This document shows positions 2,965-58,906 of a DNA stretch of 64,000 bases, in pieces (within the stretch, counting starts at the first letter, position 1; every line of letters begins with the position of its first letter). This DNA comes from a virus. A program made the position numbers and the translations under genes. The notes below the pieces were generated by a model. The model saw only the letters and a program-made list of their open reading frames with translations. It ran no database searches and was not told where the DNA came from. The DNA lies in the IMG/VR virus record IMGVR_UViG_3300033141_003629, positions 1-64,000 of that record, one strand, 5' to 3'.

Positions 2965-2971
2965 ACCTTAT

Positions 2972-3009
2972 ACCCCTCAAATAGTTATGCTATATGGGGG
3001 GTTCTTTTT
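2972..3009 (+). terminator. Terminator-like hairpin
   Basis: ACCCC (2972-2976) can pair with GGGGT (2998-3002), and inside it ATAG (2981-2984) pairs with CTAT (2990-2993). TTCTTTTT follows. The stem is interrupted and no plus-strand gene is seen upstream, so this is a weak call. Confidence 0.35.
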
Positions 3010-3207
3010 AGCAAAAAATGTGCCAATTATAAACGGAGTACCGACTGTATCTTTCTTTCGATTTAATAATTTTATAACTCATTTACTTTAAAGAACTTAT
3101 ATTTTTTCGCCAATAAATTTTAAAAAAATCAAAAATGATGAAAATATAGTCATAACGGATGATATTTTTAGTTTATTTAAGTTATTTTTTTCTTATTTTA
3201 AATCATT

Positions 3208-3580
3208 TTACATCATTTGGTGGATAATTTTAAAATCTACTTTATTTAACTTTATTAATATCAAAGAGTTATATAAGTTTTTAGAAACAAAAATCACTGT
3301 ATTTGGTAGATTTGGGTAGAATTAAGGTAGATTTCTTAGAAATTGAGCAAAATTTGGGTAGAATTAGTTCTACTATATTCAACTTATTATATATTAAGAA
3401 GTTATATAATTACTAATTCCTTAAATTTGGGTATTTGGGTAGTTTTTACCACAGGTAGAAAGATAGTCGTACCGAACGCCGCCCCCTACCCCCATCTTAG
3501 TTTAAGGACATTCTACTATTTTTATCATATTGGATTTAAAGAACTTAGAAGATTTTTTTTAAAAAAACCAAATGATGTAA
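3208..3580. repeat. 13-bp inverted repeat pair
   Basis: TTACATCATTTGG at 3208-3220 is the exact reverse complement of CCAAATGATGTAA at 3568-3580. A direct repeat of TTTAAAGAACTTA occurs near 3087 and 3535. The arms enclose the TTTGGGTA repeats. Short inverted repeats can arise by chance in AT-rich DNA, but these contain mixed bases and match at every position. Confidence 0.5.
3304..3461 (+). repeat. Iteron-like TTTGGGTA repeats
   Basis: TTTGGGTA occurs at 3311, 3353, 3426 and 3434. The first two extend to TTTGGGTAGAATTA (3311-3324 and 3353-3366). The related GGTAGA appears near 3305, 3326 and 3455. The copies lie in one strand orientation, as iterons for an initiator protein often do. A reading frame at 3343-3588 overlaps them but looks spurious. 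Confidence 0.5.
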
Positions 3581-3608
3581 GTATTTAATAGAGAAAAAGA
3601 TTTGACGA

Positions 3609-3673
3609 GGCGTTTTTGTTTTTTCGTTTAAAAACGCCGAGTAGTACTTTTTATGTATTATATAAAAAGTACT
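3609..3673. other. Two adjacent perfect stem-loops
   Basis: GGCGTTTTT (3609-3617) pairs with AAAAACGCC (3630-3638). Five bases on, AGTACTTTTTAT (3643-3654) pairs with ATAAAAAGTACT (3662-3673) around a seven-base loop. Neither is followed by a clean T run on either strand. They may be terminators of weak form, or structure at the start of the transcript that carries the RNA at 3806-4281. Confidence 0.5.
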
Positions 3674-4103
3674 AAAATCATATTGTTTATTATGTTCTTG
3701 ATTTGTTATTAATATATCAGTATCATATAAGAATAAAAACCTAAATGGCAAAAATATTTTAAAAAAAGTGTGGTAAAATCGTATATGTGCAGTATACTTA
3801 TTAGTGAGAGACAAAATCTGTTCTTTTACATAAATTTTAAGGTCAATCGCGGAAAACGCCATCCCGCGTAGGGAACTTTAAACAATAGTCGCCTTAACCT
3901 AGCTAAATACTATGGAGTCAGGCGAAAAGAAAAAAGATTTTGTTCCAGCAGATTGATTGAAAATTCATAAACAACTAGGTATTAATCAATGCTTCTATTT
4001 CTGTTAACAGAAATAGTTTGCTAAAAAGACGAAAGGTGAGTTATATCCGATTGTTCTAGAGCAGCGACATCTTCTATGAAAAGACTCTACCAAGTGAAAA
4101 ACT

Positions 4104-4220
4104 ATGGAAAAATACGAATTGACCAAATTAGATAAATTTGATGTAGCAATTGTTAAAATTCAAAAAGAAATAGATGCTCTTAAAGCAAGATTAGAAAAGA
4201 TAAAAATTTCTGTAAAGTAA
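4104..4220 (+). CDS. Small coiled-coil protein (38 aa)
   Basis: The frame begins MEKYELTKLD and continues with a regular heptad pattern (IVKIQKEIDALKARLEKI), so the product would be a short amphipathic helix. It lies between the candidate RNA helices and the terminator. The upstream AAGTGAAAA is a poor SD. It may be a real microprotein or the coding part of an attenuated leader. The terminator directly after it would separate it from the virion operon. Confidence 0.4.
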   Translation: MEKYELTKLDKFDVAIVKIQKEIDALKARLEKIKISVK

Positions 4221-4244
4221 TTCATAATACGTTATAAGTAGTTT

Positions 4245-4281
4245 AAGCTACCGCTTATGGAAGTAGGCGGTAGCTTTTTTT
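4245..4281 (+). terminator. Strong intrinsic terminator
   Basis: AAGCTACCGC (4245-4254) pairs perfectly with GCGGTAGCTT (4267-4276), and a run of seven T begins within the stem end at 4275. It stands just before the first virion gene (SD at 4295). It must be read through, or a further promoter must lie after it, for the late operon to be expressed from upstream. Confidence 0.85.
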
Positions 4282-4308
4282 ATTATATGTTAAAAAGGAG
4301 ATTTGCAC

Positions 4309-4554
4309 ATGTTAGAAAAATCAATTAGATTTGGACAGCAAAACTTTTTTTATGTAAAGAATGATGAAAGCGATGGAACATATGACTATACTGGTTTTAT
4401 GACTCAACAAGGGGCCATCCTTATTGCTCGTTATACTAAAGATGGTGACAATGCTCTTTATTGGGTAGGCACAGGAGATTTTGATACTATCTGGGCTGCA
4501 AAAGCAACAAAAAATTATGTTTATCCAAATGAATTGGATTTGCCCAGAGTATAA
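4309..4554 (+). CDS. Hypothetical protein, first gene of the virion operon
   Basis: The ATG at 4309 (MLEKSIRFGQ) lies eight bases after AAGGAG; a TTG two codons earlier is less likely. The 81-residue product alternates short strands rich in Tyr and Gly (FFYVKNDESDGTYDYTG, ALYWVGTGDFDTIW), which suggests a small all-beta protein. It precedes the tail spike gene, so a minor virion part or spike adaptor is possible, but I recognise no family. Confidence 0.6.
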   Translation: MLEKSIRFGQQNFFYVKNDESDGTYDYTGFMTQQGAILIARYTKDGDNALYWVGTGDFDTIWAAKATKNYVYPNELDLPRV

Positions 4555-4597
4555 AAGATAAAGAATAGACTCTAACTGAAAACAGGAGAGCACCGGA

Positions 4598-6118
4598 ATG
4601 TCACAGTATACAAAAAAAGTAAACAAGTTTACAGGGTATCTTCAGTTGGTTCCTTCTAATATAGTTATGGTTTTTAGAGCCGGAGTTGCCAATGAAGCTG
4701 CTCTTCCTGCATCTGGAAATGTAATAGGAGATGCAAGAATAACTAATGATACACATCATATTTATGTTTGGGATGGTTCTGCTTGGCAAGACCAGGGGGA
4801 TATTATAGACTTAAACTGGTCTGCAATTCAAAATAAACCAACTTCAACAACAAGCCAAATAGACGATGCAGTATCAAAAAAACACACCCAAGGAACAGAC
4901 CAGGGTTTAGATACTGGGGGAGCAAATGCAACAACTGCTGCAGAAGTAAAAGATGCCGTTACTAAAGCATTAACAATAGTAACTGTTACGGAATTAACAG
5001 ATGAAGGAATTAATGCAGCAATCGATTCATTAGGTGCATCTGGCGGATTAGTTTTATTGCCAGAAGGAACCTATGTAATTGATGCTCCAATTGTCATTGA
5101 CTATGACAAAACAATTTTGATGGGTTATGGGCAGCATACTATTTTAGATGCTTCGGCTTGGGCAACGCCAACAGGAAACATTATTACAGTTACTGGTGTA
5201 GATAATTGTGAAATCAAAAATTTAAAAATAATTGGTGCAAATTCTGGAGAAGCATATGCAACTATTAATGCCATTGATTCTCAGTATTTAACCATTGAAG
5301 ATGTTATTATAGAAGAAGCAAATTATGATGCTATTTTGGCAGGAGCTTCTGGTAGTGCAGGAACTAGTGACCAGTTAATTATAAATAGAGTTACTATCAA
5401 TGGTGCAAATAAGGATGGTATTAAATTTAGAGGGACTAATTGTAAAGTTACAAATAGTAGAATAATGAATACCGATGGTATTGGTATTTTTGTTTATTAT
5501 TGTATAAACCCAGAAGTAACAGATAATTATTTTTATACTTGTTATCAAATTGTTAAAGTAGAAGGTACGACTGGGTTGAATTTAATTAATAATACTTTCA
5601 GTGCAGATACTCAAGTCGCCCACGATGCTTCTCAAATTTATTATTGGTCGAATAATACAGGAGGTATTATTGCAAATAATTGTCTTAGTATTAATCAGAA
5701 TAATAAAAAATCACTTCATTTAAGGGGTTTGAATAAAGCGATTATTGCAAATAATTATATTAAAAGTGGAAACTTTACCTCTTATAATATTTATATGGAT
5801 TTATATTGCACTGATAATTTAATTGTAAATAATATGTTAGAAGCTAGCACATATAATCCAGATATTACAGGGGTTTATGGTCACGCCGATGCAGATGGCA
5901 ATGTGCTTATTAATAATCAGTTCAGAGGAACATTTGTTAACGAATATGATATCAATGGAACGTGTACAGTAATAAAACCGGAAGATATAGCGGATGCAAT
6001 TTCCAAAAAACACGATGGTACTACTCAATTAAGCCAAAACGGAATAAATGGAACATTTACAACAACCGATGGAAAGACAGTCACAGTTGTTGATGGACAA
6101 ATTACAAATATCGTGTAA
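4598..6118 (+). CDS. Tail spike with right-handed beta-helix
   Basis: A 506-residue protein with SD AGGAG. Residues 1-110 hold a fibre-type head with YVWDGSAWQDQG and a DAVSKKHTQGTDQGLDTGG string common in phage fibres. From about 150 to 470 the sequence is a pectate-lyase-like parallel beta-helix, with GTYVIDAPIVI and many Asn/Ile/Val ladder repeats such as NNTFSAD and IIANNYIKS. The C-terminal tail repeats the DAISKKH element and ends in a short strand-rich tip. Such spikes bind and often cleave surface polysaccharide; no catalytic residues can be assigned by eye. Tail spike is the likely role, while enzyme activity is inference. Confidence 0.8.
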   Translation: MSQYTKKVNKFTGYLQLVPSNIVMVFRAGVANEAALPASGNVIGDARITNDTHHIYVWDGSAWQDQGDIIDLNWSAIQNKPTSTTSQIDDAVSKKHTQGTDQGLDTGGANATTAAEVKDAVTKALTIVTVTELTDEGINAAIDSLGASGGLVLLPEGTYVIDAPIVIDYDKTILMGYGQHTILDASAWATPTGNIITVTGVDNCEIKNLKIIGANSGEAYATINAIDSQYLTIEDVIIEEANYDAILAGASGSAGTSDQLIINRVTINGANKDGIKFRGTNCKVTNSRIMNTDGIGIFVYYCINPEVTDNYFYTCYQIVKVEGTTGLNLINNTFSADTQVAHDASQIYYWSNNTGGIIANNCLSINQNNKKSLHLRGLNKAIIANNYIKSGNFTSYNIYMDLYCTDNLIVNNMLEASTYNPDITGVYGHADADGNVLINNQFRGTFVNEYDINGTCTVIKPEDIADAISKKHDGTTQLSQNGINGTFTTTDGKTVTVVDGQITNIV

Positions 6119-6135
6119 TTGAATTAGGAATTTAC

Positions 6136-6213
6136 ATGAAGAAAGCAAGAATAGCAATGGACAACATTTTAAGAGATTTAATCGTTATTTTTTGTAAATC
6201 TTTAGAGCAATAG
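6136..6213 (+). CDS. Possible microprotein (25 aa)
   Basis: MKKARIAMDNILRDLIVIFC opens the frame, which ends SLEQ before a TAG stop. TAGGAA lies seven bases upstream. The product would be a single amphipathic or membrane-seeking helix. It fills the gap between the spike gene and the next virion gene. There is no independent support, so it is only a candidate. Confidence 0.3.
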   Translation: MKKARIAMDNILRDLIVIFCKSLEQ

Positions 6214-6254
6214 TCTAATTTAAAAAATAGATTTTAGAATTTACAGAGGCAAAA

Positions 6255-6617
6255 ATGGAGTCTTATTTTAGAGGCGATACGATTGAAATGTCTTTTCAAT
6301 TATATCGTGATAAATCAGAAAACGAATATTGGGATTTAACAGGTGCACAAATTAGATTTGAATTAAGAAATGGAGCAAAAAAAATAAAGAAAGGAAGTGT
6401 ATTAGTTACTGGTGGTTCTGATGAGCAAATTCAAATTATAAATGCTGCACAAGGTTCTTTTATCGTTTATATAACTAAAGACGAATCTATAGAATTAGCA
6501 GTTGGTACTTATCAATTTGAAATCGAGGTTACAACTTCAGAAGGGAAGAGATATACAGTATTACAGGATAAGCTATCTATTAAAGAGCATTATATTACTT
6601 GGCAGAATGTAGAATAA
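6255..6617 (+). CDS. Baseplate-type beta-sandwich protein (BppU N-domain-like)
   Basis: The 120-residue protein opens with MESYFRGDTIEMSFQLYRDK and continues WDLTGAQIRFELRN, then a strand-rich C-terminus ending in YTVLQDKLSIKEHY. This RGDT..F.L....WDLTGA..RF.LR pattern is what I associate with the N-terminal domain of siphophage baseplate upper proteins and related phage Ig-like domains. Here the domain stands alone, without the C-terminal receptor-binding part. It lies between spike and fibre genes, consistent with an adaptor at the tail tip. Confidence 0.65.
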   Translation: MESYFRGDTIEMSFQLYRDKSENEYWDLTGAQIRFELRNGAKKIKKGSVLVTGGSDEQIQIINAAQGSFIVYITKDESIELAVGTYQFEIEVTTSEGKRYTVLQDKLSIKEHYITWQNVE

Positions 6618-6621
6618 TATT

Positions 6622-6852
6622 ATGGACATTGAATATACAAATCCAAAAACTAAAATTGTATTTCAACCCACAAGAATAAATATTAATGCATTTGCAATAG
6701 CTTCTGCTATAGACTTTTTGAGAAGAAATATTTTTATTGAGTACGGTCGAGCTATAGAAATAGAGATAAAGAAGTTTTATAAAATTATCTCGACCTTTGG
6801 AATATATGACGAAGATTTAAGAGCTTTTTTGGTAGCATGGTATAAACATTAA
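6622..6852 (+). CDS. Hypothetical virion-operon protein
   Basis: A 76-residue protein that starts five bases after the previous stop. It combines a strand-like N-terminus (TKIVFQPTRININA) with a helical C-terminal half (LRRNIFIEYGRAIEIEIKKFYK, ending RAFLVAWYKH). No domain is recognised. The tight spacing argues for co-translation with the BppU-like gene, perhaps as a partner. Confidence 0.55.
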   Translation: MDIEYTNPKTKIVFQPTRININAFAIASAIDFLRRNIFIEYGRAIEIEIKKFYKIISTFGIYDEDLRAFLVAWYKH

Positions 6853-6873
6853 AAGGATGGAGGAAATAAGAAA

Positions 6874-7428
6874 ATGGCTGATTACAGAGTCCCAGTTTTA
6901 GAAAATTTTGAATGGCAACAATCAGTTAAAAGTAGGTCAGCAACACCTCCAGGCAGTCCAGCAAAGGGTGATAGATACCTCGTTATTGCTACTGCAAGCG
7001 GAGATTGGTCTGGTCACGAAGGAGATATTGCATATTGTTCTAATGCAGTTGGTCCAGTTTGGTCTTTTGATTCTCCCACAGAGGGTATGATTTTATGGGT
7101 AGATGATGAAGACAAGTATTATCATTATAATGGAAGTACATGGAGCGAATATCTTGGGCAGCAAGGACCCACAGGTCCAACAGGCCCACAGGGTACTACT
7201 GGTCCAACAGGCCCTACAGGTCCACAGGGTGCAACCGGCAACACAGGTCCTCAGGGTCCAACAGGCGCACAAGGTGCTACTGGTCCAACTGGCCCTACAG
7301 GTCCACAGGGTGCAACCGGCAACACAGGTCCTCAGGGTCCAACCGGCCCTCAAGGACCAACTGGTCCAACTGGTCCAGTAAATCAAACGTATGATGCAGA
7401 TTACGAAGCAATTATAATTTCACTATAA
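6874..7428 (+). CDS. Tail fibre: DUF2793 head plus collagen-like Gly-X-Y stalk
   Basis: Residues 1-92 are a DUF2793-type domain ([21 protein letters not shown], then [21 protein letters not shown]), a family found in phage fibres and adaptors. Residues 95-170 are an unbroken collagen-like repeat made mostly of GPT, GPQ and GAT triplets, which should form a trimeric triple helix. The last 14 residues ([15 protein letters not shown]) form a short cap. SD is GGATGGAGG. The same head domain opens the gene at 8440, so the two are paralogues. GPT triplets are O-glycosylated in some bacterial collagen-like proteins, and a glycosyltransferase gene follows directly. Confidence 0.85.
7171..7380 (+). 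repeat. Collagen-coding repeat with 81-bp period
   Basis: About 53 bases starting at 7211 recur from 7292 with essentially no change, a period of 81 bases or nine Gly-X-Y triplets. The near-identity in DNA, not only in protein, shows recent in-frame duplication. It also makes this region prone to slippage and fibre-length change. Confidence 0.85.
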
Positions 7429-7445
7429 AAAGAAAGTAGGGAATT

Positions 7446-8465
7446 GTGAAAGCTATTTTATGGCCCTACAAATATAAGAATATGCGGAAGAGTTGGTATT
7501 TACAAATGACTTGGATTGTAAATGCCCTCTTTAAGTATGGTATTACAGTTAAAAAACATAAAGATTTTATTTGTCAAGGGTTAGATTTTTTGCCTTTATA
7601 TAATTATAAAGAAGATAAATCTACAGATATTTGTATTTATAATCATGCAGATATATCTCACTTGACGGGGGATATTTTATTGGCGAAAACAAATTGGTTT
7701 TTTAAACCAACAGTTCCAGACGAATACCACTCGACTTTGGATATTTTGGGTTATGGTCCATATAGTAGTGTAACCTATAATAAACCAAATTTTGAAGTGG
7801 TAGATAACAACGATGTAGATATCTTTTTTAACACAAAAGTTAAAAAATGGATTGAAAATAAAAGCACTAAGTGGGGAGGCTTCTTTGAAAATAAAGAGCA
7901 AGTTATTACCGATAAAGGTTATTTTTTAGTTCTGGGTCAAGTAGGAGGAGATGAGGTAGTAACAAGACATGATTTTGGAAGTTATTTTCTAAAACTAGAA
8001 GCCATTATTAAAGAGTTACTTCGTATTTCTAATAAAAAAATTATAGTAAAATTACATCCGTATACAGATGGAATAAATGCCAGGAATACGAAATTTTCTG
8101 ATGGATTAAAGAAAAGACTAAAATCGTTTAGTAATAGAGTTGCTGTTTATACAGGCAAGACAAATATACATAATTTTATAAAAAATTGCGAATGTGTATT
8201 TTTGTCAAACTCAGATTCTGGTTTTGAAGCAATGATGCACAAGAAACCCATAATTTCGTTTGGATTTCCTGCGTATCATTGGGTAGCATATGATTTGAGG
8301 CATTTATCTGATTTAATAAGGGCTATTAAATTGGATTGGTTCGATTTAAACAAACAGAATAAATTTTTATATTGGTACTTAGAAAAATATTGTTTTTATA
8401 ATCAACAAACAGCCATTAGAAGAGTAAAGGAATTGTTAGATGGTAGATTACCCAGTTCCTATTAA
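7446..8465 (+). CDS. Glycosyltransferase of the capsule-synthesis (KpsC/S-like) type
   Basis: The 339-residue protein uses a GTG start after AGGG. The C-terminal half carries the family hallmarks: KKIIVKLHPY near 196, then CECVFLSNSDSGFEAMMHKKPIISFG, where the Ser-Gly-Glu-Ala and Pro-Ile-Ile-Ser-Phe-Gly blocks mark the sugar-nucleotide site of capsular polysaccharide transferases with GT-B fold. The N-terminal half is less conserved. It sits between two DUF2793 fibre genes and overlaps the second by 26 bases. The likely substrate is therefore a fibre, perhaps Thr in the GPT repeats, rather than host capsule. The enzyme class is fairly secure, the acceptor is inference. Confidence 0.7.
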   Translation: MKAILWPYKYKNMRKSWYLQMTWIVNALFKYGITVKKHKDFICQGLDFLPLYNYKEDKSTDICIYNHADISHLTGDILLAKTNWFFKPTVPDEYHSTLDILGYGPYSSVTYNKPNFEVVDNNDVDIFFNTKVKKWIENKSTKWGGFFENKEQVITDKGYFLVLGQVGGDEVVTRHDFGSYFLKLEAIIKELLRISNKKIIVKLHPYTDGINARNTKFSDGLKKRLKSFSNRVAVYTGKTNIHNFIKNCECVFLSNSDSGFEAMMHKKPIISFGFPAYHWVAYDLRHLSDLIRAIKLDWFDLNKQNKFLYWYLEKYCFYNQQTAIRRVKELLDGRLPSSY

Positions 8466-52599: not shown

Positions 52600-53202
52600 T
52601 CATTTTAATAACCCTGCTAATGCTAACACAAAAGCATCTGCTTCGTCTTTTGTTTTAAATTCTAAATTAAAGTCGGTTTTTAAATAATCGTGGACTAAAG
52701 TTTTGCAATCTATTTTTTTTGCTTTGCCTTTATTTTTCCCCCTGGTAATGATGTGAGGTTTTATATTTCCTTTAGCCTTCTGTTTTCTTTGGTTAAATCC
52801 AATAAGACTTCTTGCTGTTGTTGCCCCCATATAATAATAAACATCAAAATACTTTTTCAATAAAATATACGTAAGAATTCCAAAATGAGCGAGATGAATC
52901 AGCGTTTCTGGATTGCGCCCAAAAAAACATCGTTCTATAACTTGTATTTTTTGTTGTTTATATTTTTCAATTTCTTGTTTAAATTTTTCTAAAGCAGCAA
53001 CATAATGGTCTGCTCTATGAAAGTGGTCGTCTTTAGCAGAAGTTTCAATTACTGCTGTTTTTTTAATAATAATTTCTGTTTTAGTGGCTTCTAAAATACA
53101 AATACCTGTATAGGCTTCAGCAACATCAAAGCCAATAGAAATACAATTTCGCCGAACTATTTTCTTTAACTTTTTTTCTAATTTACTAATCTTCATTTTC
53201 AT
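52600..53202 (-). CDS. RuvC-like Holliday junction resolvase
   Basis: The 200-residue protein has the RNase H fold acidic set: IGFDVAEAYTGICI (Asp26), QVIERCFFGRNPET (Glu90) and TKDEADAFVLALAGLL (Asp186 and Asp189). The SIGxD...TG and DEADA motifs are those of phage and poxvirus-type RuvC. It could resolve recombination junctions before packaging. A second in-frame ATG two codons in (53196) is equally possible as start. Confidence 0.8.
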   Translation of the reverse strand: MKMKISKLEKKLKKIVRRNCISIGFDVAEAYTGICILEATKTEIIIKKTAVIETSAKDDHFHRADHYVAALEKFKQEIEKYKQQKIQVIERCFFGRNPETLIHLAHFGILTYILLKKYFDVYYYMGATTARSLIGFNQRKQKAKGNIKPHIITRGKNKGKAKKIDCKTLVHDYLKTDFNLEFKTKDEADAFVLALAGLLK

Positions 53203-53332
53203 TTTTTAATTCAATCGCTTCATTAATAAATTTTATAGAATCTTCTAAATAAATATTTTTTCTGCATTCTTTGTTGTGCATTGCCATTTGAATTCTTTCT
53301 TTTGCTAATTCGAGCCATTCAATAATAGTCAT
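53186..53332 (-). CDS. Small helical protein (48 aa) before RuvC
   Basis: The frame MTIIEWLELAKERIQMAMHN ... is helical and charged, with AAGGAT upstream. It starts two bases after the polymerase-HD stop and overlaps the RuvC start by 17 bases. No domain is known. The tight placement suggests it belongs to the replication operon. Confidence 0.55.
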   Translation of the reverse strand: MTIIEWLELAKERIQMAMHNKECRKNIYLEDSIKFINEAIELKNENED

Positions 53333-53334
53333 AT

Positions 53335-53877
53335 TTATCCTTGGTCTTTTGGAGTGACTAAGTCTTTAGTAGCAGCCAAATAATCCGCCATATAGACAAC
53401 GAACTCCAATTTGCTGTATTTTTCTATAGGCTTTTTTATGCATTTCGGAGTCCAAAGCCCCATATGAAAACATATACAATTATTAATTTTTTGCAATATT
53501 TTATCATCCAAACCTACAACATCTACTGCAAAATAATTGCAAGCATTTATTGGATGATTTTCATAATCCTCATATGTAGATTTATTTTTGTCTACTTTAG
53601 CAATATCATGCAAAATCCCCGCAGCTAAAACAATATCTTTATCAATTCCTTTAATATCCAATCCGAGACATAGGCGACTAATAAAATAAATTGCTCTCTT
53701 AACGTGTACAATTAACCCGCCTTTTTTACAAGTACACGCTGGGTGATGTTTGCCAGTTGAAGAAGCCATACCAATGTAAAAATAATCTGGGGTATTTTCT
53801 AATGACTTTTTAACAAATTCACGAATAGCGTTATTAGAAATCAATGCTATTTCTTTATCTAATACATCCGCCTTCAT
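53335..53877 (-). CDS. HD-domain protein from an internal start in the polymerase gene
   Basis: On the minus strand AAGGAGGAG ends three bases before an in-frame ATG at 53877 (MKADVLDKEI). It is among the best SD sites in the whole window. The product would be a complete 180-residue HD protein with His58, HD at 90-91, His108, His138 and Asp164. It resembles YqeK-type and related phosphohydrolases. Separate translation besides the fusion is inference from the preserved site. Confidence 0.6.
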   Translation of the reverse strand: MKADVLDKEIALISNNAIREFVKKSLENTPDYFYIGMASSTGKHHPACTCKKGGLIVHVKRAIYFISRLCLGLDIKGIDKDIVLAAGILHDIAKVDKNKSTYEDYENHPINACNYFAVDVVGLDDKILQKINNCICFHMGLWTPKCIKKPIEKYSKLEFVVYMADYLAATKDLVTPKDQG

Positions 53878-56202
53878 TGACTCCTCCTTTTTTATGCTAC
53901 AGTTTTTGGCATGTTTGGAGCGTTTGTGGCATGTTTGATTGCTTAGTATATGTTTGGACTTTTCAATAGTCCAGCCCATTGCATCATAAATCTTCTTCAT
54001 CTTACTATCAATGCTTTTATCAATAACTTTCTTCCAGTTTACTTTCATTTTTTTTACTAAATCTTGAGATTCTTTAGTATCATCAAAACACAGTACATCT
54101 TTTTTAACTTCGGTGATAGATTCTGTTGTTTCTCCTGTTTTTTTGCTAGTTCTCTTGCTTTTTCTTGTAGCTGTTCCAAAAGGCTCTACTGGAATATAAT
54201 AAAAAGAATCTCCAGCAAATTTTTGCCACTTAGGATTCAACTCTTTGGTATATTTATTGCCTCTTACAAAAATAGGGGGCGATTTATAAACCGTATTTTT
54301 TAATTTACAAGGAAAACCAACTTCATTCAGGGGGAGGATTTTAATTCTTTCTTTCTCTTGCTTTACAAAGGACTCAATTTGTTCCTTTGTTTCTTCGTTC
54401 TTTATTTTGTTAATGACTTCTGCTTGAAAATGTTTAATATATTTAGAAGAGTCTGCTCTTTTGACTTCAATACCTTTTTCTTCATGCTTTCTTTTCCCAT
54501 TCTTTTTTAATAAGTCTCCATCATAGTGACATAAAGCAATAATAAAAATCTTTTCAAAAATTCCTTCATAATCAAACTCAATCTCTACATTATTTTTATT
54601 ATACTTCTCTTTAGCCCACTGTTTTATTAATTGGTTACATAAGTCTGTGGGATTTTCTTCTGCCCGTATAAGAAGACCATCTGTATCAATATAAATAATT
54701 TTTATTCCTCGTTCTTGTAATTTATTTTCTACATAGTGAAGCAAGTCTCTAATTAAAAAAGTTATTGCTCTTGCTATTCGGATATCAAAGAGTCTAAAGA
54801 CTTTTAATCCACATACTCCAAAGAGAGAATTAACTACTGCCTTGGTAGCATCGTATTTAATTTGGAGGTCTTTAGCTTCCTGCGTTTCTGGGTCTAATGC
54901 ATTTAGTCTTTTCTTTATTTCCTCTTTTTTGTTAATCAATTTTCTGGCTAACATTGGTAACAGAGCATTTGATTTTTGAACAAAACGAGTTTTTTGAATT
55001 TCAATGCCTTCATTTTCTCGTATATTACCAATATCTAGACAAAAATTAATTATGCTTTGAGGATATGCACTAGACAAGTCTACTTTATATAAATTTTTGT
55101 ACAGGCCAGTTAACCTCTCAATCGTAGTGCCGTCTTTATCTTCTATATTACACCTTCTATAAGCTCCTTCAAAAGTTTCGTCTAATTCAGAATCATAATT
55201 TTTTGATGGCAATATAATTCCCATGCTCTTAGCTTCAGAAAGAACCATCATATCCAGTATTTTTGAATTCCAAGATAAATCTTCCCAGGCCGATTTGCTC
55301 ATGCGCCTAAGCTCATCATAGTAATTTACAATATGTAGTTTTTCTTCAATTTTCATCATTCTGCGAATATCGTTTATATTTTTCTCTTTTAATTTATCCG
55401 ATAAAACATTAAATGGCACTTTCTCAAAAGACTCTTCTTGAAGCTCTATCTGTGCAATACTATCGAGAGCATAAGAGCGTTTTCCTTTATATATTTTCTT
55501 ATACCAATCAAGAAAATCAACTACTCCTAGTCCTGCAGGTAGAATAGTTGGGTTATCTTTGCTTCCTATTATTCTATTATGAAAGATAGGGGATAAAACT
55601 CCTGCTAATTCTACTCCAAATACTTTTTTATATCTTGCACTTAAATAAGGCCAGTCAAATTTAAGCATATTCCAAGCAGCTATAAAATCAAACTGCTCCT
55701 TTCTCATCCACTCTACAAAATCATTTAGTAATTGTTTTTCTCTATTGAGCAAATCTGTATCTGGACTAATTAGATAATCACCTAAGTAGAAGGTTTTTAT
55801 TTTGCCCGTATAATTATTAGAAACAGAAATACATGAAATTGGCGAATCTGGAAATTCTGGAGATGGGAGTGCACTACAAAGAACTTCGATATCTATAAAA
55901 GAATATTTTATTTTCGCTGGAAGAAATTTACCAATTTTATCTATGATATATCTTTTATAAAATAAAACATCTGCTTCATAGGAGTTTTTATTTCTTTTCC
56001 TTCCGACTTCATACGGTTGATTACAAATAACTTTTTTAACTTTTTTCCTATCTATGGTCTTATATATGCCTGCATTAGATGGTTGATAAAAATATGGTTT
56101 AAAGGTAAGGTCTTTAAAAAGAGATAATTTTTCTCCTATACGATGAAATATATAAATTTCTCGCCCTTTATTTGCTACATTAGTCACTGCAAAATTAAGC
56201 AT
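53335..56202 (-). CDS. Family B DNA polymerase fused to a C-terminal HD phosphohydrolase domain
   Basis: Residues 1-775 are a complete polymerase. The exonuclease motifs are FIDIE (102-106) and AAWNMLKFDWPYL (175-187). The polymerase motifs are YKVDLSSAYP (372-381), KYDATKAVVNSLFG (449-462) and YIDTDG (504-509). Residues 776-955 are an HD domain with His833, GILHD (His865, Asp866), His883, His913 and Asp939. The join is one open frame without a stop. Just before residue 776 stands a perfect SD, so the HD part once had, and may still have, its own start. The short Cys/His-rich link CHKRSKHAKNC lies between. HD domains act on nucleotides or phosphodiesters; here it could manage dNTPs at the fork. 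Confidence 0.85.
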   Translation of the reverse strand: MLNFAVTNVANKGREIYIFHRIGEKLSLFKDLTFKPYFYQPSNAGIYKTIDRKKVKKVICNQPYEVGRKRNKNSYEADVLFYKRYIIDKIGKFLPAKIKYSFIDIEVLCSALPSPEFPDSPISCISVSNNYTGKIKTFYLGDYLISPDTDLLNREKQLLNDFVEWMRKEQFDFIAAWNMLKFDWPYLSARYKKVFGVELAGVLSPIFHNRIIGSKDNPTILPAGLGVVDFLDWYKKIYKGKRSYALDSIAQIELQEESFEKVPFNVLSDKLKEKNINDIRRMMKIEEKLHIVNYYDELRRMSKSAWEDLSWNSKILDMMVLSEAKSMGIILPSKNYDSELDETFEGAYRRCNIEDKDGTTIERLTGLYKNLYKVDLSSAYPQSIINFCLDIGNIRENEGIEIQKTRFVQKSNALLPMLARKLINKKEEIKKRLNALDPETQEAKDLQIKYDATKAVVNSLFGVCGLKVFRLFDIRIARAITFLIRDLLHYVENKLQERGIKIIYIDTDGLLIRAEENPTDLCNQLIKQWAKEKYNKNNVEIEFDYEGIFEKIFIIALCHYDGDLLKKNGKRKHEEKGIEVKRADSSKYIKHFQAEVINKIKNEETKEQIESFVKQEKERIKILPLNEVGFPCKLKNTVYKSPPIFVRGNKYTKELNPKWQKFAGDSFYYIPVEPFGTATRKSKRTSKKTGETTESITEVKKDVLCFDDTKESQDLVKKMKVNWKKVIDKSIDSKMKKIYDAMGWTIEKSKHILSNQTCHKRSKHAKNCSIKKEESMKADVLDKEIALISNNAIREFVKKSLENTPDYFYIGMASSTGKHHPACTCKKGGLIVHVKRAIYFISRLCLGLDIKGIDKDIVLAAGILHDIAKVDKNKSTYEDYENHPINACNYFAVDVVGLDDKILQKINNCICFHMGLWTPKCIKKPIEKYSKLEFVVYMADYLAATKDLVTPKDQG

Positions 56203-56203
56203 T

Positions 56204-56563
56204 TTATTTTACTCCCCACAAATAAAATGGATGCCAAATTCCATCATATCCGTTGTCATGCAAATAATTTAACATTTTATTTGCGCCAATGGGATTACAA
56301 CTATGAATATAAAATAAACTTCTTTTACAAAGATTATTATTAACTATCCACTTTATAAGCTGATAACCAGTATTTTCTTCTTCAGAATCTACCCAAATTC
56401 TACAATCTAAATCGTGGTCTAAGAAAAAAATTTGAATTGAAAGTTTTTCTATGCATTTTTTCGCTTCTTGAATATTTGAATAAATATATAATGACTGGTC
56501 TTTAAAAAGATTTTTCATAGCTTCAATACGAGCTAAATTATCTTCGAGAATAAGAATATTCAT
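56204..56563 (-). CDS. Cyclic-phosphate-processing receiver-like domain (cREC)
   Basis: The 119-residue protein has the receiver-like start NILILEDNLARIEAMKNLF, then FFLDHDLDC (LDHDL, 48-52) and the two special blocks FYIHSCNPIGANKM (86-97) and LHDNGYD. LDHDL and IHS.N..GA..M separate the cREC group from signalling receivers; cREC domains are predicted to process 2',3'-cyclic phosphates of RNA. An RNA ligase is encoded at 60270, which supports an RNA repair role. It overlaps terminase by four bases. Confidence 0.75.
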   Translation of the reverse strand: MNILILEDNLARIEAMKNLFKDQSLYIYSNIQEAKKCIEKLSIQIFFLDHDLDCRIWVDSEEENTGYQLIKWIVNNNLCKRSLFYIHSCNPIGANKMLNYLHDNGYDGIWHPFYLWGVK

Positions 56564-58185
56564 CGCTTGCTCCCAAAACTCCCAAATCCAGGTTTCTTTC
56601 TTTTTATTGGCTTGACTTTCTTAAACTCCATTATCCAGACTGAAATAGCAAATACTTGCATAGCCTGAAATAAGTGGTTCTCTCCTTTACAAGCATATAA
56701 AATTTTACCATGTTTATTTCGACCAGCAACAATATTGTTCATTTGAGTATCTAACTTGGAATCTTCATAACACTCTATTTTTTTATCATAAAAAATATTT
56801 TTTAAACACTGAATTGACCAATCTACTACGCTTGTCGTTTCAAACTCCGGTTTTCCATTTCTATCGGTTACTAAATTTCCATTGGTATCTTTCTTAAATC
56901 CTATTTCTATATTTGAATTAAAATCTATGGGTATAAAATTATTTTTGCTCTCTGGATACTTTTTAACCAAATGGCTATATATACTTTTTCCTACTCCCGA
57001 TGTATGGTCTAATGCTATAAAATTTGGAGATAATAGACTGATTAGGTAATCTATAAATGCTTCTTCTTCAGTAGGAGAAAGTTGAAAAGTAGTAATTCTG
57101 TAAATATATCTATATTTTTTATTTATTTTTATAATTATAGCATATTCTGAAGGAGCGCCCCCCTCTCCTACATCAAAATAAATCCCCAAGCTATTTGCAT
57201 TCGCTGGTCTTTCCATAAATAGAATTTCTTTGTGTCTATAAAAATTATCTTTATTGACTTCAAAACATTGGATAGGAATGCCATTTCCTTCTTTGTCAAG
57301 CAAATAAGTCTCTCTTATTCGTGCAATATCAAATACACTATTCATTCCTTCAATGACTTTTCCTTCTATTTGCACGAGATATCCTGGAGAATCTTTTCCT
57401 CCAAATTCTCTAATAGCATCGTCTTCTTTCTTTTTGTTCCAGGTCGGATTAGCGTACGAAGGGAGATTAATAATTTTGTACTTATTTTCTAACGCATGAA
57501 AAATTTCTCCCATAGGAGAAGCTTTTGTAAAGGTCGTCATTCCGCTGTATCTATTTTTGCAACCTTTTTCTGCTTGACTCATTAACATTTTTCCAGAAAC
57601 ATCTTTAGTTAAAAACGAAGCTTCTTCAATATAATGCCTATCAAAATGCTTTTGATAATATTGTGAACCTGGATTTTTTCCTGTAATATTTTGATTTACA
57701 CTCTCTAATAAACACCCGTTGTTAAAGTTTATTTTATATGTCGGGCTTCTTAATGATTTGGCGTGTAGAAGTTTAAAAACGCTGTGATTTTCTACACAGT
57801 GAATAATCTTATCAAAGAGAGTTTGAACGTGAAGTTTATCATACGAGCTAATAACTGCCCAATTATATATTTTTTTAAGTGTAACCAATAATATATCTAG
57901 CGTAATAAAGACTAAAGATTTTCCAGTTAATCTACCTCCGAGATTATAACTTTCTGCCAAATTATTTTCTATCTTCCAATTTTCTTCTGGAGATTTTTTC
58001 TTATCATATAAAAATAAAGAATCCCAAGAAAGCATTGGATATTGATAAAGCCTTATATGACCTGTTTTTTCTTTATCCCACCGGTCTAAAGCATCAAAAT
58101 CATGAAAAAGTAGCTCTGCAGACATTACTGGATGAGATAAGGTCTGAAAAAATATAAGTTCTTTTTGTTTGATTTTAGCTATCAT
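56560..58185 (-). CDS. Terminase large subunit
   Basis: The 541-residue protein has an ATPase part with GGRLTGKS (83-90, Walker A) and HYIEEASF (184-191, Walker B with catalytic Glu). A nuclease part follows with LGIYFDVGEGG, FIALDHTSGVGKSIYSHL and LDTQMNNIVAGRNKHG as the acidic strands. This is the DNA packaging motor that docks on the portal. It lies on the opposite strand and 45 kb from the portal gene, in the replication arm, and overlaps the small-subunit-like gene by 11 bases. Confidence 0.85.
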   Translation of the reverse strand: MIAKIKQKELIFFQTLSHPVMSAELLFHDFDALDRWDKEKTGHIRLYQYPMLSWDSLFLYDKKKSPEENWKIENNLAESYNLGGRLTGKSLVFITLDILLVTLKKIYNWAVISSYDKLHVQTLFDKIIHCVENHSVFKLLHAKSLRSPTYKINFNNGCLLESVNQNITGKNPGSQYYQKHFDRHYIEEASFLTKDVSGKMLMSQAEKGCKNRYSGMTTFTKASPMGEIFHALENKYKIINLPSYANPTWNKKKEDDAIREFGGKDSPGYLVQIEGKVIEGMNSVFDIARIRETYLLDKEGNGIPIQCFEVNKDNFYRHKEILFMERPANANSLGIYFDVGEGGAPSEYAIIIKINKKYRYIYRITTFQLSPTEEEAFIDYLISLLSPNFIALDHTSGVGKSIYSHLVKKYPESKNNFIPIDFNSNIEIGFKKDTNGNLVTDRNGKPEFETTSVVDWSIQCLKNIFYDKKIECYEDSKLDTQMNNIVAGRNKHGKILYACKGENHLFQAMQVFAISVWIMEFKKVKPIKRKKPGFGSFGSKR

Positions 58186-58906
58186 TTTTAAGGTCTTTTA
58201 AAAATATTTGCTCATATATTAGTGTTACATATTTATGATTTACGTCTAAGATTTTTGCAACTTCCTCAATAGTCAATTTCTTTTCGTGATATGCTTTTAG
58301 TAGTGGTTTATTGTATAGGGTAGTCCCCCTAAAAAATGAAGCTTTTTTTATATCATATCCATCTAACTTCATTATCTGTCTGCTGAGTTGCAAACAATAT
58401 GGACATTTATAATAAATTTCTCCGGCATGAGTGTTATAATATTCTTTTGCTTTTGTTTTTAATTCATTCCATACAGAAGAAAAGGAGTCTGTTTCTTTTT
58501 CCTTTAATAGACCCAAAACCCGTTCGTCTTCAGCAATAGAAGAGTCCAAATCGAGCATTTTTTGTGCAATGCCTAGTGGTATGGCTCCAACTTGCTCACC
58601 CTTTGCATTTGTTTTGGTATATTCATCTTCCATAAATTTCTGCATTCGTTGTCTTAGCATTTTTTTATAAACCATTCCTATAAGTTTACTTTTCTCTGCA
58701 TAAGACTCAAATAAATTTTGCGATAAATATTCTTTATATATTTCTACTGCTTGTTTGATTTCACTGCTTATCAAGCCAGAAAATGCTTTTTTTAATTCTT
58801 TCTCTTCTAACTTTTCTTCTGCTAGTTTAACAAGCTGTTCTTCTGTAAGATTCTTATTCTGCTTTAAACCCCGTAGTCTCTTAATTAATTTTTCTTTCTT
58901 AGTCAT
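58175..58906 (-). CDS. Terminase small subunit-like protein
   Basis: The 243-residue protein is helical. It has a Cys pair IYYKCPYCLQLSRQ near 166 and a C-terminal helix-turn-helix LTIEEVAKILDVNHKYVTLI. Overlap with the large terminase gene by 11 bases and the DNA-binding motif are the reasons for the call. The family is not recognised directly. Recognition of the packaging site is the expected role. Confidence 0.6.
   Translation of the reverse strand: MTKKEKLIKRLRGLKQNKNLTEEQLVKLAEEKLEEKELKKAFSGLISSEIKQAVEIYKEYLSQNLFESYAEKSKLIGMVYKKMLRQRMQKFMEDEYTKTNAKGEQVGAIPLGIAQKMLDLDSSIAEDERVLGLLKEKETDSFSSVWNELKTKAKEYYNTHAGEIYYKCPYCLQLSRQIMKLDGYDIKKASFFRGTTLYNKPLLKAYHEKKLTIEEVAKILDVNHKYVTLIYEQIFLKDLKNDS

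Follow-up and report, generated by a model that had tools for sequence, protein, structure and literature searches.

A frame in which a DNA polymerase runs on into an HD phosphohydrolase domain may represent a purposeful enzyme with a preserved internal start, or two neighbouring genes that became joined. Such a frame lies on the minus strand of the window analysed here, that is, the whole stretch of 64,000 nucleotides (positions 1 to 64,000 of IMG/VR virus record IMGVR_UViG_3300033141_003629, from an uncultured phage). The sequence-only reading of this locus had put forward the enzyme, with a recent loss of a stop codon as the alternative. We asked which of the two is favoured by the frame itself, by the family of its HD domain and by the arrangement of the same genes in related records.

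The frame, its linker and the internal start

The frame extends over 955 codons (955 aa) to a TAA with no internal stop, and codes in order for a complete family B polymerase, a 29-residue linker (747–775) and a complete HD domain (776–955). Pfam placed DNA_pol_B_exo1 at residues 63–249, DNA_pol_B at 318–615 and HD at 832–944; the polymerase matches scored 59.1 (PF03104) and 85.7 bits (PF00136) at a curated cut-off of 23. The polymerase part matches phrog_262 across its whole length and its closest relative found is about 60% identical. The exonuclease residues D104, E106, D183 and D247 and the acidic residues of motifs A and C (D375, D506, D508) are all present and, like Y380 and N458, invariant in the polymerase family alignment. 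Conservation ends at about W744, and relatives stop shortly after it, with short variable tails. In the HD part, H833, H865, D866, H883, H913 and D940 do not vary among the 51 aligned members, and neither do H820 and K869 (8/8 positions). The earlier claims that a full polymerase and a complete HD domain share one stop-free frame, and that the active residues of the latter are complete, were thus borne out.

Table 1. Features of the polymerase-HD locus and its flanks, in coordinates of the window
Feature	Coordinates	Strand	Basis
Polymerase-linker-HD single open frame, 955 codons	53335..56202	-	
Family B DNA polymerase, residues 1-744, conserved end W744	53971..56202	-	Pfam, phrog_262, invariant columns
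Linker, residues 747-775	53878..53964	-	Intergenic-like codon usage, predicted disorder, stops in 2 other frames
Linker direct repeat, 16-nt copies and 9-nt partial copy	53902..53937 (copies 53902-53917, 53922-53937)	-	
Shine-Dalgarno sequence AAGGAGGAG	53881..53889	-	
Internal ATG = M776, matching in alignment the start of L010's separate HD gene	53875..53877	-	
HD domain protein, 180 aa, phrog_5889 / SPO1 gp32.6 family, predicted YhaM-like fold	53338..53877	-	
Small ORF, about 44 codons, between HD and ruvC; slot cargo	53200..53332	-	
RuvC-like resolvase gene, downstream bound of the variable slot	52600..53202	-	phrog_159
Small conserved protein, phrog_1479, upstream of the polymerase	56204..56563	-	

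The linker looks like a spacer, with a gene end, a spacer, a Shine-Dalgarno (SD) sequence and the next gene following one another and one frame open by chance. On the window's own codon usage, residues 749–775 score -0.32 bits per codon. Of coding pieces of that length, 99.5% score higher, and the value is typical of open intergenic pieces, though the measure is noisy over 27 codons. In the model of the fusion, pLDDT drops below 50 at exactly the linker residues, while the polymerase end and the HD domain are confident. Both other frames stop immediately 5′ of the SD sequence, at TAG 53899–53897 and TAA 53894–53892. The linker is also occupied by imperfect repeats whose unit of about 20 nt is not divisible by three; the two 16-nt copies are 94% identical and 20 nt apart, and a 9-nt partial copy lies at 53950–53958. 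No terminator was found between the polymerase and HD parts. A stretch of 26 codons with intergenic base composition is open in about 10% of cases, and the frame adds a factor of 1/3, so that an in-frame join is in itself not improbable. A zinc site in the H/C-rich linker was considered and set aside; the stretch consists of translated repeats and is predicted to be disordered.

The SD sequence ends 3 nt ahead of the ATG of M776, its AAGGAGG core being 5 nt away. With 7 nt, this ATG has the longest anti-SD match among the 207 internal in-frame ATGs of window genes (one other has 6 nt), and a match of at least 7 nt occurs at only 8 of the 71 gene starts in the window. The best match of 207 indicates an internal start beyond chance, and the proposed strong SD before an in-frame ATG at the domain border is confirmed. 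In the related record L010, HD is a separate gene; its ATG, which shares bases with the stop codon before it (ATGA), falls opposite M776 in the alignment. No second HD copy was found in the record of the window. The start codon is conserved, and its agreement with that of L010, together with the lack of another HD copy, suggests that a free HD protein is likely made from M776. The internal start in the proposal of two products is therefore credible, with expression of the free form predicted from it; the other half of that proposal, a preserved and purposeful fusion enzyme, was not supported.

The HD domain: family and likely activity

Over residues 2–177 (176 residues), the HD part matches phrog_5889 (E 1e-33), a family with HD members also in many viral and bacterial contigs. 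HD proteins of SPO1-group phages (gp32.6) are 30–33% identical to the window HD, and in SPO1 the gp32.6 gene lies within the replication cluster, between the genes for DNA polymerase and ligase. A search of the literature on gp32.6 returned no reports. The HD domain modelled alone had a mean pLDDT of 93.5 and is helical, without strands. When a profile of the 51 members was compared with PDB sequences, YhaM/Cbf1 came first (E 2.6e-8 and 3.4e-7), followed by PDE10A (0.002). Foldseek gave YhaM as the sole match below 0.001 (E 3.4e-4), and in VIA-align it reached a Z of 16.8 over 162 residues vs. 12.0 for the next structure. The alignment with YhaM spans the whole HD domain, including the SGKxH...GGLxxH segment. 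YhaM is Mn-dependent and degrades ssRNA in the 3′–5′ direction, in B. subtilis also ssDNA and nanoRNA; its His-Asp pair is required, and an OB fold is present in all YhaM homologues (PMC11347170). As YhaM ranks first in the comparisons and the ligands are invariant, profiles and models suggest that the HD activity is most likely that of a YhaM-kind 3′ nuclease.

It is unlikely, in our estimate, that the domain is instead a hydrolase of nucleotides or signals (dNTPs, cyclic nucleotides or dinucleotides), clearing for instance host defence signals. Such a role would agree with the weak matches to PDE10A and YqeK, with a PDEase_I match in 5 of the 51 members, with the SAMHD1, HD-GYP and PDE folds that appear at ranks below YhaM, and with the common chemistry of HD enzymes; it is opposed by YhaM being clearly first in three comparisons and aligned along the entire domain. 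Among defence systems, only weak matches to Cas10/Cas3 HD domains were obtained. The idea of a built-in dNTP control is consequently no longer leading, since the family resembles the nuclease YhaM more than a dNTPase.

Related genes and the slot between polymerase and ruvC

The window has the only frame with both domains among 174 HD frames, which represent 143 distinct segments, and 90 polymerase frames, of which 51 are near full length; the polymerase frames include some contigs more than once. Apart from the window, none of about 50 related polymerase frames carries HD. The open codons before the HD domain number at most 30 in 122 of the 143 segments and exceed 100 in the window alone. No recurrence of the fusion was detected in viral contigs searched with alignments of the polymerase, of HD or of a mixture, in bacterial genome contigs searched with HD or in cultured phages searched with both proteins, and the exact junction DNA was not found elsewhere among records from which near-identical ones may be absent. 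L010, L013, L022 and L023, the nearest relatives to have both genes, carry HD separately and upstream of the polymerase; in L010 a phrog_1479 homologue sits between them. An alignment of related polymerases had been suggested as a check for a recurring fusion, and it left the window as the single fused case. With the two genes separate in every relative found, the notion of a preserved polymerase-HD enzyme loses its ground, and from these comparisons the frame looks like a one-off gene join and not a conserved new kind of polymerase.

The interval between the polymerase and ruvC varies from overlaps of -1 and -4 nt up to several genes. L022 and L120 have no gene in the slot, and there the stop codon of the polymerase shares nucleotides with the start codon of ruvC (TAATG; ATGA). 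A Mom-like gene comes after the polymerase in L003, L009 and L010, two other genes do so in L004 and L008, and two to four ORFs in L106, L131 and L132; in the window the slot contains HD and a small ORF. Given the stop/start overlap at an empty slot, inserted DNA leaves the polymerase without a stop unless the insert brings its own. A second join was observed in L127, a more distant member of the family, where the polymerase continues in frame into a Mom-like protein (2971–6192; phrog_1384, E 6e-52) that is a separate gene downstream of the polymerase in L003, L009 and L010. Joins with neighbours have thus arisen at least twice and with unrelated partners, and for this pattern tolerated read-through is a better fit than a selected HD-polymerase.

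Several further features of these genes were recorded. Intein-like inserts of several hundred residues are present in the polymerases of L009, L013, L023, L120, L131 and L132, giving frames of 1087–1167 aa; the insert position differs between L009 and L013. The polymerase of L014, a distant relative, is split into overlapping ORFs at 4986–6020 (exonuclease part) and 6017–7051 (polymerase part). That of L008 (5001–7790) is interrupted by an ORF at 6940–7605, perhaps a homing-endonuclease-type insertion, and its C-terminal end is recovered at 7584–7790. Near the starts of the Mom-like proteins (L127, about 5400–5520; L003, L009, L010), the peptide EVSKKTCxTSSSESRVQVSNLAP is unusually conserved, perhaps owing to a conserved element at the DNA or RNA level. 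Upstream of the window's polymerase, a 541-aa protein (56560–58185), terminase-like by eye, is preceded by a 243-aa protein (58175–58906); neither has a PHROG match at E 1e-4.

Origin of the join and comparison with known systems

The explanation that we consider probable, with some reserve, is a lineage-specific read-through join of two ordinary phage genes that still yields free HD, the HD being likely a YhaM-like nuclease. A family B polymerase gene and a gp32.6-type HD gene would have been brought into one frame, the polymerase stop being lost as the HD gene arrived in the variable slot; we infer a DNA insertion at the polymerase 3′ end as the route. Provided that the contig is accurate, the polymerase has no stop other than the one after HD, hence every polymerase would bear HD on a flexible 29-residue tether; the observations behind this are the missing stop, the predicted disorder of the linker and the intactness of both domains. 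The internal SD and M776 would supply additional free HD protein, and HD would most likely be a Mn-dependent nuclease that attacks single-stranded DNA or RNA from the 3′ end, independently of the polymerase. Stop-codon loss, named earlier as the alternative, accounts for the frame better than a built-in device does, but as a single point change it is less likely than a remodelling of the polymerase 3′ end at the slot. Some points weigh against the read-through join: from the repeats and the lost stop one can tell that the region was altered, but neither when nor how, a harmful join should be lost and yet both domains are intact, and the nuclease activity is predicted for a domain without the OB fold of YhaM.

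The intactness of both domains and of all ligands would also suit a selected bifunctional enzyme, with HD serving the fork either as an additional 3′ nuclease that clears frayed ends or RNA or by acting on nucleotides close to the active site. The HD gene neighbours the polymerase in four related records and belongs to the replication cluster in SPO1, and an RNA polymerase beta-HD fusion is reported for some Bacillus jumbo phages (PMC7824862). We nevertheless regard selection as quite improbable: not one second case exists among all the relatives, the linker looks non-coding, the internal start is retained, and the polymerase already has its own 3′–5′ exonuclease domain. The same low standing is given to a working polymerase tethered to a YhaM-like HD nuclease, to which the internal start adds free HD, with mixed oligomers at the fork; if true, a second 3′ end-processing activity would be built into the replicase. 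A low but appreciable probability attaches to an assembly or sequencing error in the linker, in which case the genome would really hold polymerase and HD as distinct genes, the first ending at a normal stop ahead of the SD. The frame comes from a single record of metagenome data, the imperfect tandem repeats, their unit length not divisible by three, fall exactly in the linker, and the stops of the two other frames occupy the usual place of a gene end. The repeat copies differ, however, the array is only about 60 nt and would be spanned by reads of ordinary length, and the L127 join is a further example of such a frame among these polymerases.

Under the read-through reading, a gene fusion is probably being seen at an early stage, in which the ribosome-binding site of the donor gene persists. 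The join sits at a polymerase-side slot with cargo turnover, where a join with the neighbouring gene is also seen for a second polymerase of the family. For phrog_5889 (including SPO1 gp32.6), a common but unnamed phage HD family, a YhaM-like 3′ nuclease activity becomes a testable lead. These analyses provide no evidence for a conserved dNTP-controlling polymerase.

The window's polymerase shares with T4 gp43-type family B polymerases (phrog_262) the exonuclease and polymerase domains and all motifs, whereas its frame runs on beyond the normal end into HD. With phrog_5889 and SPO1 gp32.6, the HD part has in common the family, the invariant ligands, the start position and the neighbourhood of replication genes; members elsewhere are all free-standing, while the window HD lies in frame behind a polymerase and is not a free gene, though the start codon and SD of one are retained. 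By profile and fold, the closest solved structure is YhaM/Cbf1, a 3′–5′ exonuclease of Gram-positive bacteria, with which the catalytic His-Asp and the other HD ligands align. YhaM has an N-terminal OB fold that is missing from the window HD, the free form of which would begin at M776, and the predicted domain is thus YhaM-like rather than a YhaM. The L127 polymerase belongs to the same family (38% identity) and is likewise in frame with its downstream neighbour, but it is joined to a Mom-like DNA modification protein, with no ATG at the junction, whereas the window has HD and a junction ATG. The earlier statement that no polymerase-HD fusion of this kind had been named holds for DNA polymerases, none being found in the literature searched; it does not extend to RNA polymerase, as in some group 1 Bacillus jumbo phages a part of the beta subunit is reported to be fused to an HD domain (PMC7824862). 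There, too, a nucleic acid polymerase subunit carries an HD phosphohydrolase domain, and although it is an RNA polymerase and the likeness is one of domain type, this fusion is the closest published analogue that we found.
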